Source: Lactiplantibacillus plajomi (GTDB lineage Bacteria > Bacillota > Bacilli > Lactobacillales > Lactobacillaceae). Taken from it: 64,000 bases of DNA. Both the position numbers and the translations under genes were made by a program. The stretch is taken from the NCBI RefSeq assembly GCF_005405405.1, contig NZ_BJDZ01000003.1:1-64000 (forward strand). The letters are read 5' to 3'. A model generated the notes under the pieces. It searched no databases. It was not told where the DNA came from and worked only from the letters and a program-made list of their open reading frames with translations. Below are positions 19,175 to 23,038 of this stretch, piece by piece (position 1 is the stretch's first letter; the number at the start of each line of letters is the position of its first letter).

Positions 19175-19228
19175 GCGGCATTTTTCTTCATCATATAATT
19201 TTAGAATATTTCCAATTACGTATAGATA

Positions 19229-19257
19229 TTGACAAGATTATACTATTAATGTTTAAT
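19229..19257 (+). promoter_or_regulatory. Promoter of the HTH-TPR regulator gene
   Basis: TTGACA (19229-19234), 17 bases, TTTAAT (19252-19257), about 60 bases before the TTG start. Confidence 0.65.
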
Positions 19258-19316: not shown

Positions 19317-20159
19317 TTGAACATCGAGCTTTTTATCGCCCGGCGAAAGGCTCTCGGCTTATCGCAAAAAGCGCTTGCCGAGGGAATCTGCACCCAGGCG
19401 ACCCTTAGTAAATTTGAAAATAACGGTAAGGCGCCCGCAATTCGGATTGTCGCCCAACTTTGCCAGCGGCTTAACCTCCAATTAGAGGACGTTTTTCCAA
19501 CCGAGCGGGTCGCTGATGCCGCCGTTCTAAAGGTTTTGGAGCAAGTTGAATTTGACTTGATTACCAGCGAATTTCGCAACGCCGAAACGCTGCTTACCAA
19601 AATTGCGGATAAACCCCGTCACGACCGTGAGACCAACTTACAATATTGTTATTTAAAGGGGTACGTTTCCGCACTCACGAACCATCCGATCAGTGATGTG
19701 TTGTTCAATTTCGACCAAATCATCACCGACCTGGATGAATCCCACACGACGATTTATACCCAACTCGCTTATTGTGGCACCGGGATTGCCTACCAATTCA
19801 ACGAAGACAACAACAAGGCCCAGTACTACTTTGAAAAGGTCCGCCACGCCCTGCCCGATTTACCACTTGAGAATACGGCCAGCGTTTGGCGGGTCATCAA
19901 TCTGGCTTACTACACGGGTAATTTCTACGCCAGCATCGGTCAGTCGGAACAAGCCCTCAAGCTTTTGGATTACGGCATTAAGATTTGTTCCCAGTACCAC
20001 GTGACCTACTACGCAGCTTGGATCAAGTTCTTACAATCCCAGCTGATTGAAGACCCAGATCAAGCAGCGGAGTATTTAAACGACGCTGGCGCGTTCGCCA
20101 GAATCAACAATAACCGTCAATTACTTAAAAAAATCTCAAGTTATTCAAGTTCTCGTTAA
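19317..20159 (+). CDS. HTH-XRE/TPR regulator of the Rgg/PlcR (RRNPP-like) architecture
   Basis: 280 residues. The first 60 form an XRE helix-turn-helix (RRKALGLSQKALAEGICTQATLSKFENNGK, read in parts). The rest is helical with TPR-like repeats (LQYCYLKGYVSAL, TQLAYCGTGIAYQ, INLAYYTGNFYASIGQSEQAL), the layout of peptide-sensing cytoplasmic regulators such as Rgg, PlcR and PrgX. Start is TTG 19317 behind AAGGAAG. A short hydrophobic peptide gene follows 90 bases later on the same strand with no terminator between, as in plcR-papR. That pairing is inference; the target genes are unknown, though the divergent-facing adhesin gene is the nearest. Confidence 0.85.
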   Translation: MNIELFIARRKALGLSQKALAEGICTQATLSKFENNGKAPAIRIVAQLCQRLNLQLEDVFPTERVADAAVLKVLEQVEFDLITSEFRNAETLLTKIADKPRHDRETNLQYCYLKGYVSALTNHPISDVLFNFDQIITDLDESHTTIYTQLAYCGTGIAYQFNEDNNKAQYYFEKVRHALPDLPLENTASVWRVINLAYYTGNFYASIGQSEQALKLLDYGIKICSQYHVTYYAAWIKFLQSQLIEDPDQAAEYLNDAGAFARINNNRQLLKKISSYSSSR

Positions 20160-20249
20160 CCTTGGGTCAATTAATTGCATTTCGTTCGGCCATCCTCTAA
20201 ACTGCAAGTATCAAAGACGAGTTTGCCAACAATCAAGGAGGTTTTGACC

Positions 20250-20369
20250 ATGTTACTAGCCGGTCTTTTAACCGCGGCCGGGTTAGCCGTACTCGCTGGC
20301 GCCGCAGCCAGCAGTTCGGTCCCCGCTGCACAACCTGTCAAAATCAAACGTGAACGTCATCAACGTTAA
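20250..20369 (+). CDS. 39-aa hydrophobic peptide downstream of the HTH-TPR regulator
   Basis: The ORF begins at the ATG eight bases after a near-perfect SD (CAAGGAGG). It encodes MLLAGLLTAAGLAVLAG, a small Ala/Ser/Pro-rich segment and the basic tail VKIKRERHQR. It could be an exported signal-peptide precursor for the adjacent regulator. The lack of N-terminal Lys/Arg and the basic C-terminus are unusual for a secretion signal and also fit a small membrane-active peptide. Followed by a strong terminator, so it ends the regulator transcript. Confidence 0.6.
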   Translation: MLLAGLLTAAGLAVLAGAAASSSVPAAQPVKIKRERHQR

Positions 20370-20386
20370 TCATGACGTCAAAAATA

Positions 20387-20435
20387 AACGCGTATTCGCT
20401 AGACGAAGTTAGTCTAATGAATACTCGTTTTTTTT
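20387..20435. terminator. Terminator between the 39-aa peptide gene and the adhesin gene
   Basis: AACGCGTATTCGCTAGAC pairs with GTCTAATGAATACTCGTT (imperfect), then eight T on the plus strand. A shorter T-rich run on the minus side suggests use by the adhesin gene too. Confidence 0.75.
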
Positions 20436-20437
20436 AG

Positions 20438-23038
20438 CTATAATAACCGTTTGCGTAAACCGTAACCCGCGCCTAGGAGAAGCGTCATTAACAATAATCC
20501 GAATCCGACTAACCAGCCGTTAGTTAGTGCCGCGTTCGTTTGCGGCAACCGGCTAGCACTAGCCGTTACGGGTTTAGGGGCCGTTGGTTGCGTCGGCTGA
20601 CTGACCTTGGTCGGTACCGGCGTTGCCACTGGCCGTTTCGTTACCGGTGACTGAACTGGATCCGTCTTCGGTTGCGTTACTGGTAATTGCGGGGTGGTCG
20701 GGTCAACTGGATCAGTTGGGTCAACTGGGTCAGTCGGGTCAACTGGATCAGTTGGATCAACCGGGTCAGTCGGATCAACTGGATCAGTTGGATCAACCGG
20801 GTCGGTTGGATCAACCGGTTTAGCCGTATCCGACACCGTAACTAACGCATCGTAAGTGGTGTACGGGCTCAACGTAACTGGCCACGACGTCGCATTCAAC
20901 GCATAGCCGTCTGGCGCGACCGTTTCTTGAATGGTGTATTCGCCTTGCGCCAAACCGCTAAGCTGGGCACGGCCGTTTTGATCAGTCGTTAAGGTTGCAA
21001 CGACCTTACCCGTGACATCAGTGACCTTAAAGGTTGCGCCGACCAACGGTTGTTGGTTCGCCTGGTCAACCTTTTGAATAGTCAGCGATGCTAACTGGTA
21101 AGTATTAGTCAAAGTAACCGTATCGCCGGTCGTGGTTTGGGTCGCAACGTACCCATCCAGTGGCGTTTCCACCACCGTGTAACGGTAAGTCGTCCCGTTG
21201 GCGTCACTGACCGCTAAATCCGTAAACGCGCCGCGGTACTGGTTGGCCGCCGTCAAAGTTAACGTTTGGACGGCTTGACCATCCCGTTGTAACGTGACGA
21301 CCACGTCGGGCCGCGTCACGCTGGCCGGAACGTTTTGCCAAACTTTAACCACGTTCACTTGGGTCCGCGCAATTTTCGCATCGGCGACCGGTAACGTAAC
21401 CCGGGCATCGGTAGCGTTAGCAGCATCAACGACCACCTGATGCGACTGCGGATCGAGTAAGTACCCGGCCGGCGCAGCCGTTTCCTTAATGGTATAGGTC
21501 CCTGCCGATAAATTGTCAACGTAAATCCGGCCCTGCGCATCGGTGACCAAGTCGTCACGGAGTAGCTGGCCGTTGGCATCTAACAACTGGTAAGTTGCGT
21601 CCGCCAACGCTTGGTCGTCTTCACCGGTCTTCACAATGATTAACTGGTACGGTTGGTCATCGTAACTCCCCTGAATACCGTAGCCTAAGGCCGCGTTAGC
21701 CTGCTTATTTTCAGGTTCGGTCGTCCCGGGGTTTTCGGGATCAGACGGTGTGCCGTCCGGTGTATAGGTCACATCAGCATTGTTCGTGTATAAGTGACCC
21801 TTGGTAACCGTTACTGAATAAAATAAATTAATTGCAGTCGTAATATCGTCAAAATGAATGGTCAGCTGATTACCCGCTTGCGTGAAACGAATATTATCCG
21901 CAGCGCCCCCGGCAGCCGGCGTAAACTGGTTGGTCTCAAAATTAAAAGTTCCCAACGTGGTTTCTTTTTGAAAGGCACCGTCGACGTAGTGACCACTTTC
22001 AAGCGTCAGGTCGCTATCATGCGTCTGGTACAATCCCAGTTGATCAACAATCTCAACGTTTTGCCAATGTTCACTGCCAATGTTAGCAACAACTTGCCAG
22101 TACAGGCGCGAAGGAACACCATCTTCGTCAGTCGAATTAGCGTCCGCCCAACCGACTTTATTGATTTTAGCGGTACTATCACTCGCATCGTTATCGGTGC
22201 CGGTCACGTAAATTGCGAAGGACCCGTTACGTTTATCGTAATCATGCGTTGCAAAGTAATCACCAAAGGTTAGCGTCCCGGTCGTTGTCCCGTTGGTCAT
22301 TTTCAACGTGGCTACCGGTTGGCCATCCTTCATGAGCGTCTCAGTTCCGCCGGTCGACAAGACGTTGGCTGGTAACGTCAACGTTGCCGTATCACCAGGA
22401 TTAATCTTTTCACCATCCGGAATCGACCAGTTATAAGTCGCCTTGTAAGAAACGTAGCGACTTAGCGAATCGCTCGCATCGTACGTTGTTTGACCATCGG
22501 TACTGGTCAAAACGGCATCTTCAGCACCAATGCCATTCACAACGACCGCTTGTTTGACCGTCCGTTTTGGCTGGGTGGCAGCATCGCTCGACGCGTCAGT
22601 GTCATCCCCCGCTGGCGAGTCGTGACTAGTTGTCACCGCATCGTACATCTGCGTCGTCGTTTGGTGGTTCGCCGTCGTTGCCGTCGTTGCTTTGGTCTTG
22701 GCACTGACCCGCCGCTTAGCGGATTGCTGTTGATCAGTAACGTCCGACTGACTTTCGTTGGCCGTCGTATCGGCACTACTCGTTGTCGTTACCGCTGCCG
22801 GGGTCGGTGTCGTAACCGGCGTTTGACTAGCTGACGGTGCCGCCTTAGTTGACGCGGCAGACGATTTTAACGTGACTTGCTTAGCTGGTTTTGCAGCCTT
22901 AGAACTGGTGGTCACGACGTCCGCGTCCGCTTGCGCCGGCGTATCGGTCGCAGCGTGGACGTGAACATTAGTCGTGACCAACATCGTTAATAACGTTGCC
23001 GTCCCGGCTAACCAGGTCGTTAAGTGTTTGCGTTGCAT
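20438..23038 (-). CDS. LPQTN-anchored surface adhesin with Cna-B (SpaA-like) domains
   Basis: 866 residues. Signal peptide 1-29 ending HVHA. A long Ser/Thr/Ala-rich stalk follows (about 30-165). Next is an adhesive domain with an Ig-like fold ([15 protein letters not shown] region, about 190-430), then three Cna-B/SpaA prealbumin-like domains. Two of these end in the isopeptide Glu pattern, [12 protein letters not shown] and [12 protein letters not shown]. Then come seven PVDPT(D/T) spacer repeats, a Pro/Thr-rich wall-spanning segment and the sorting signal LPQTN (831-835), a hydrophobic helix and RKRLL. Sortase A would fix it to peptidoglycan; binding to collagen-like or mucosal ligands is inference. 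SD GGAGGGAGG. Confidence 0.93.
20698..20820 (-). repeat. 18-bp tandem repeats coding PVDPTD
   Basis: Seven in-frame 18-bp units encode PVDPT(D/T) just before the wall-spanning segment of the adhesin. Units differ at synonymous third positions (ggatca/gggtca, ttgg/tcgg). Such arrays change length by slippage or recombination and alter the reach of the surface protein. Confidence 0.9.

Follow-up and report, generated by a model that had tools for sequence, protein, structure and literature searches.

Does the regulator encoded at positions 19317..20159 of this contig read the small peptide encoded directly behind it and, if so, on which side of the membrane do the two meet? The question was raised by the first-pass annotation of a 64,000-nucleotide stretch of Lactiplantibacillus plajomi (hereafter the window; the assembly comprises 2.76 Mb in 77 contigs), which described an XRE-TPR regulator followed by a short peptide gene and proposed a signalling pair of the RRNPP type. 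From our comparisons across the genus and the family, we consider a receptor plus its cognate peptide likely. As a dedicated receptor-peptide module with a regulator of the PlcR type, we give it an even chance.

The regulator and its adjacent peptide gene

Both frames are as the annotation described them. The regulator gene, on the forward strand, runs from a TTG start at 19317, preceded by the Shine-Dalgarno stretch 'aaaaaaggaag', to the end of its stop codon at 20159, and encodes a PlcR-like XRE-TPR transcriptional regulator of 280 aa. The peptide gene follows on the same strand (20250..20369), with an ATG at 20250 and a stop ending at 20369. Its product of 39 aa has an uncharged hydrophobic N-terminal segment, a juxtamembrane motif (PAAQPVK here, PAAQPVR in most relatives) and a basic tail, with a predicted N-out/C-in orientation. 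The excellent ribosome-binding site noted earlier, AAGGAGG at 20235..20241 (+), is conserved in the genus alignment.

Regulator and peptide are inherited together as neighbours, and the peptide gene carries its own promoter-like element. The two genes adjoin in all 21 Lactiplantibacillus genomes searched, a Lactiplantibacillus herbarum record (L084) carries the pair, and with 39 aa, 90 nt downstream, the peptide lies within the 10–100 aa looked for in an adjacent peptide gene. The gap measures 86–95 nt in the 20 genomes scored by script; in the 21st (L010), which has a longer regulator frame, adjacency was judged by visual inspection of the alignment. A profile of the genus peptides run against 397 genomes recovered these 21 copies, every strong match adjoining the regulator, and elsewhere weak, embedded matches only; plasmid records contained no match to the peptide.

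The substitution pattern marks the peptide gene as a coding sequence under constraint. Among 19 equal-length genes (171 pairs, excluding the 39-aa form of the window and the 41-aa form of L010), pS was 0.624 and pN 0.117, giving a pN/pS of 0.188, and variation reached 0.375 at codon position 3 against 0.114 and 0.062 at the other two. Constraint is strongest in the membrane segment (0.115 for residues 1–21), followed by residues 22–31 with the PAAQPVR motif (0.137), and weakest in the tail (0.288). A 64-aa reading from TTG 20175, which would add Lys residues, was rejected because the gap of 86–95 nt brings frame changes between species, the −35 hexamer begins with this TTG, and the Shine-Dalgarno sequence precedes ATG 20250.

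In its size, single membrane segment and charged tail, the peptide resembles small hydrophobic type I toxins in general. That it is such a toxin is nevertheless very improbable, given its constant place in 21 of 21 genomes, the strong purifying selection and a regulator as its neighbour; a consensus scan, which also missed the forward promoters, returned no antisense promoter.

The regulator itself is supported as a member of the PlcR/RRNPP type by profile comparison. An N-terminal HTH DNA-binding domain is present in all 45 members of the regulator family (Pfam HTH_3 in the window's protein, E 3.1e-10), and TPR repeats in this protein are sub-threshold by Pfam. With a profile of the 45 sequences, PlcR was the top PDB match (E 1.4e-8) over positions 10–271, nearly the full length, which identifies the C-terminal part as a TPR or TPR-like domain homologous to that of a solved RRNPP receptor. 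HipB antitoxins came next, via their HTH, then PrgX and Rgg2; Rgg2 and ComR were weak matches. An AlphaFold model built from two sequences had low confidence (pLDDT 55.9). With this weak model, Foldseek placed PlcR first at E 1.2e-3, with no match at E ≤ 0.001, and VIA-align also placed PlcR first, with a Z of 15.3 and an rmsd of 8.4 across 201 residues; in this ranking of the families in the VIA-align list, NprR and unrelated TPR proteins tied with PlcR to within 1. None of the NCBIfam RRNPP models scored the regulator above its own cut-off. Across the genus genomes, the window's own aside, regulator identity is 76–89%. The HTH is nearly invariant (pN/pS 0.039 in 20 genes) and thus far more constrained than the TPR part (0.176) or the peptide, a pattern that favours the receptor-peptide module. 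A more distant regulator paralogue with 28% identity (L002, G000:C2:91901-92707) also occurs genus-wide, and no such peptide adjoins it in the five copies examined.

Promoters, a candidate operator and the neighbouring genes

A predicted regulator promoter (TTGACA, 17 nt, TTTAAT; 19229..19257, +), read from the sequence, is present in 15 of the 21 genus genomes, namely those with the common upstream region. The peptide gene has a promoter of its own at 20175..20203 (+; TTGCAT, 17 nt, TAAACT), seen in the 21-genome alignment. Both were missing from the output of the consensus scan. The annotation had placed the two genes on one transcript. A conserved promoter between them calls for a correction of this statement; a simple scanner, which also missed the terminator behind the peptide gene, reported no terminator between the genes, and read-through is therefore also possible. 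The terminator proposed behind the peptide gene held up well: at 20386..20434 (+), a long hairpin followed by T8 has a dG of −20.8 kcal/mol (z −4.2), and 0 of 200 shuffles were as stable.

An extended peptide-promoter pattern, allowing up to 3 mismatches, matched somewhere in 19 of 21 genus genomes and at the peptide promoter itself in 16 (G000, G003–G009, G011, G013–G019). The matches in G001, G002 and G010 are located elsewhere, and G012 and G020, which have no match, carry a one-base insertion in the promoter stretch (L003, L005 in the alignment). The promoter core TTGCAW-17-TAAACT is of ordinary vegetative type. It was rejected as a regulon marker, since nrdI-, ribU- and CopY-like genes, among others, have it upstream as well (names from translations). 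A promoter near the extended pattern occurs at 1501–1537 of L130, directly upstream of a Cof-type HAD hydrolase-like gene, and three other genomes have an equivalent promoter.

Over the predicted transcription start of the peptide gene lies the element GCAAGTATCAA (20204..20214, +), conserved in the genus alignment, which together with the TTGCA of the −35 hexamer forms a spaced inverted repeat. As an operator, this TTGCA-N-TGCAA repeat was weakened by the degradation of its right arm in L013 and L014 and by its absence in the second genus with such a peptide (g34, see below), where the element is not conserved.

The best candidate operator is instead a palindrome at 19195..19209, ATAATTTTAGAATAT (family consensus ATATTYYNRRAATAT), centred some 62 nt ahead of the point where the regulator transcript is predicted to begin. 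Within 2 mismatches it occurs upstream of the regulator in 15/21 genus genomes and 14/75 outside the genus (1.25 and 6.9 expected from dinucleotide shuffles), and within 1 mismatch in 12/21 and 8/75 (0.05 and 0.9 expected); the 8 outside sites come from three genera (3, 3 and 2) and are therefore not independent. The remaining six genus genomes lack it, with 3 or more mismatches. Of 15 exact sites in the 21 whole genomes, 8 are at the regulator promoter. In other genera, the palindrome stands 36–70 nt before nitric oxide (NO) reductase genes adjoining the regulator (L107, L141, L142, L092), or in the gap that separates the regulator from a divergent acyl-CoA dehydrogenase gene (L095–L097; identified by Pfam in L095). 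As the site accompanies the regulator through such differing neighbourhoods, it is our best guess for the regulator's binding site; it is possible that it belongs to an unrelated NO-responsive regulator. The peptide promoter has no such palindrome, a point against the receptor-peptide module, as is the weakness of the structure model. When no more than 1 mismatch is allowed, the window's own genome holds 19 palindrome sites, and a reversed-pattern control gives 4. An attempt to derive a regulon from them was abandoned, as the genes beside the 15 sites examined form no coherent set.

Of 20 relatives, 18 have an oligopeptide-binding-protein (oppA-like) gene close upstream of the regulator, and in one of the other two the contig is truncated (L111). 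Together with the PlcR matches and the conserved, coding peptide, this sustains the earlier assignment to RRNPP-type regulators with an adjacent peptide. The neighbouring cell-wall adhesin gene, which the annotation had offered as a possible target, was rejected as such. It is convergent to the regulator and peptide genes, its start lies about 2.7 kb away, and an LPXTG adhesin homologue is found downstream in 12 of 20 relatives, in stretches of 8 to 12 kb in which a distant copy could be missed; layout and occurrence make it a poor candidate. In the window, this gene (20438–23038) encodes an LPXTG protein that has SpaA/Cna-B domains and, ahead of its anchor, a long Asp-Pro-Thr-Asp-Pro-Val repeat.

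The regulator family outside Lactiplantibacillus

At E ≤ 1e-30, 65 of the 201 family genomes searched contain a regulator homologue, as do 14 of 40 genera; viral contigs contained no relative of the regulator. We examined 76 neighbourhoods outside the genus (75 plus L191) among about 84 matches listed. An analogous peptide adjoins four of these homologues, all in g34, and 72 have none. The expectation that regulator and peptide would co-occur in relatives thus holds throughout Lactiplantibacillus and for 4 of 6 regulators in the second genus, but fails at the other 70 outside homologues, including the closest in the tree.

The four g34 peptides (MLGETLLIVGISVILAGLLGLPPRSQRNKQTLAHNNQKK and three relatives) are encoded 81–122 nt downstream of their regulators, and two of the six g34 regulators lack one. 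All four peptide genes have a promoter with a TTGC-type −35, a 17-nt spacer and TARACT, the same geometry as in Lactiplantibacillus. A blind architecture scan recovered three of the four, none in other genera and 0 in an antisense control; this filter missed 3 of the 21 genus peptides and is therefore not fully sensitive. Searching 301 family genomes with one g34 peptide returned the four g34 peptides only, each adjoining the regulator, although the reach of this search is short because the Lactiplantibacillus peptides were not found by it either. Since hhalign aligned a single column between the peptides of the two genera, which is not informative as to homology, we term them analogous. Elsewhere, a frame of 18 aa (MTKKLIQVNNFYFGYYFS) that has a perfect AGGAGG and a promoter-like sequence lies 84 nt downstream of the regulator in L094 and resembles a classical short hydrophobic pheromone.

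In the regulator tree, from which L010 was left out, Lactiplantibacillus groups with g3 and g21, which have no peptide, with support of 84/78 only, and g34 groups with g15, which also has none. The peptide trait requires three changes, of which at least two are forced, and the regulators that have a peptide fall into more than one clade. A single origin followed by losses, a transfer, or two separate origins are all possible histories, and the peptide may have been added in particular lineages.

Outside the genus, the regulator often adjoins redox genes, such as a NO reductase gene or an ApbE/FMN-reductase cluster, from which it follows that no adjacent peptide is needed for the family to work. 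Homologues adjoin norB, encoding NO reductase, in three other genera (L092, L105 and L107 by Pfam; L108, L141 and L142 by matching N-terminus), and control of NO or respiration by this PlcR-like family is possible. In a second clade (L152–L190, e.g. L152, L155, L169), the neighbours are FeS-assembly, MoaA and LuxR-type response regulator genes, which suggests a link with nitrate respiration. The homologue of one g38 genome (L189) is broken by a stop codon after 88 residues. A 41%-identical homologue (L260, NZ_CP011282.1 144402-145259) is carried on a plasmid of Enterococcus faecium, where it lies between IS1216 copies and beside genes for ApbE, FMN reductase and NAD(P)H oxidoreductase; the gap in this one record contains no peptide of such type. 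Of 116 matching records, 107 are from Enterococcus.

These neighbourhoods bear on a reading in which the peptide is not a ligand at all, but a small membrane protein under the regulator's control or merely adjacent to it. The predominance of regulator homologues beside redox enzymes and without a peptide fits this, as does the ordinary promoter core shared with unrelated genes. We still think it rather unlikely, as every strong peptide match, all 21 in the genus and all four in g34, adjoins the regulator. The same observations divide the evidence on the receptor-peptide module: it is favoured by the co-occurrence in 21 of 21 genomes, by the g34 analogues with their shared promoter geometry and by the clean antisense control, and it is weakened by the 72 outside homologues without a peptide, the redox-enzyme neighbours and the scattered position of the peptide-bearing regulators.

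Orientation of the peptide and its possible role as ligand

According to the positive-inside rule, the orientation of a membrane segment can be predicted from its basic residues. None of the 20 distinct genus peptides has Lys or Arg in residues 1–20, and the remainder of each carries 3–7, so the peptide is predicted to lie N-out/C-in, the reverse of the orientation of a secreted precursor. The description of the window's peptide as an unusual precursor, without N-terminal Lys/Arg and with a basic tail, therefore holds generally.

Two systems provide the closest comparison. In the Bacillus cereus group, a small peptide gene with its own promoter, papR, lies directly downstream of the PlcR regulator gene. 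The order and promoter arrangement are the same here, the HTH-TPR regulator is likewise of about 280 aa, and PlcR is its best profile and fold match; by contrast, our peptide lacks a basic N-terminus, has a basic C-terminal tail and is most constrained in its membrane segment, and its promoter does not contain the candidate operator. The Lactobacillales receptors of Rgg-SHP, ComR-ComS and RopB-LCP are also HTH-TPR-like, with adjacent short hydrophobic peptides, some of which have no Sec signal or any leader according to PMC10075063 and PMC10518010; the present regulator is closer to PlcR, and its peptide is longer and has a basic tail. The 'loose' class of RRNPP_detector (PMC10075063) is also among the closest known systems. 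No paper on this regulator-peptide pair was recognised in searches of the open-licence PMC literature.

If the peptide were a classical RRNPP pheromone, it would leave the cell, be trimmed to a short C-terminal pheromone and return through an oligopeptide permease to bind the regulator. The PlcR homology and the upstream oppA-like gene are consistent with this, and peptide size and distance fall inside the limits of RRNPP_detector given in PMC10075063. The reversed charge pattern argues against it, as does the low constraint of the C-terminal tail, where pheromones usually sit according to a survey (PMC9765709). In the same survey, 56% of RRNPP propeptides contained a pair of lysines. The missing N-terminal Lys/Arg and the basic tail speak against a Sec signal in the 20 peptides, but this does not exclude export, since SHP, PrgQ and PptAB-type peptides are described as lacking one (PMC10075063). 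On balance, the design of the peptide probably makes export and quorum sensing less likely, and we regard the classical pheromone as a doubtful reading.

The charge pattern and the distribution of constraint would fit an N-out/C-in membrane peptide better. As a membrane partner, the intact peptide would hold or release the regulator through its cytoplasmic tail and report the state of the membrane or envelope, with no cell-cell signal. The strong constraint on the Ala/Gly-rich membrane segment and the juxtamembrane motif points this way, as does a tail that keeps its charge rather than its sequence. Against it, the interaction is putative and the topology a prediction, and the passages on RRNPP systems consulted in PMC10075063, PMC9765709 and PMC10518010 offer no precedent. 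We consider this role unlikely. A cognate peptide that is never exported, a genus-wide N-out/C-in micropeptide presenting a cytoplasmic PAAQPVR to the TPR domain, we likewise hold to be improbable when taken as a separate proposal. The confidence placed in these readings overlaps with that in the receptor-peptide module, because that module has two versions, one exported and one membrane-bound.

Within the receptor-peptide module, the peptide, or a fragment around its PAAQPVR juxtamembrane stretch, would be the ligand read by the TPR domain, putatively in its groove. Binding would alter the action of the regulator on its own promoter, via the ATATTYYNRRAATAT palindrome, and on a small gene set. 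The charge pattern would favour release of the ligand on the cytoplasmic side, and whether the module senses between cells or within the cell would depend on that side. The inverted charge pattern thus poses a sharp either/or between an exported signal and a membrane-bound ligand.

Members of Lactiplantibacillus, the L. plantarum group, are widely used in food and as probiotics. A PlcR-type receptor-peptide pair in every examined genome would represent a new control circuit of this genus, in an order for which a survey reported no PlcR systems (PMC9765709). If the peptide is indeed never exported, a pheromone-receptor fold would have been turned into an internal sensor of the membrane state.
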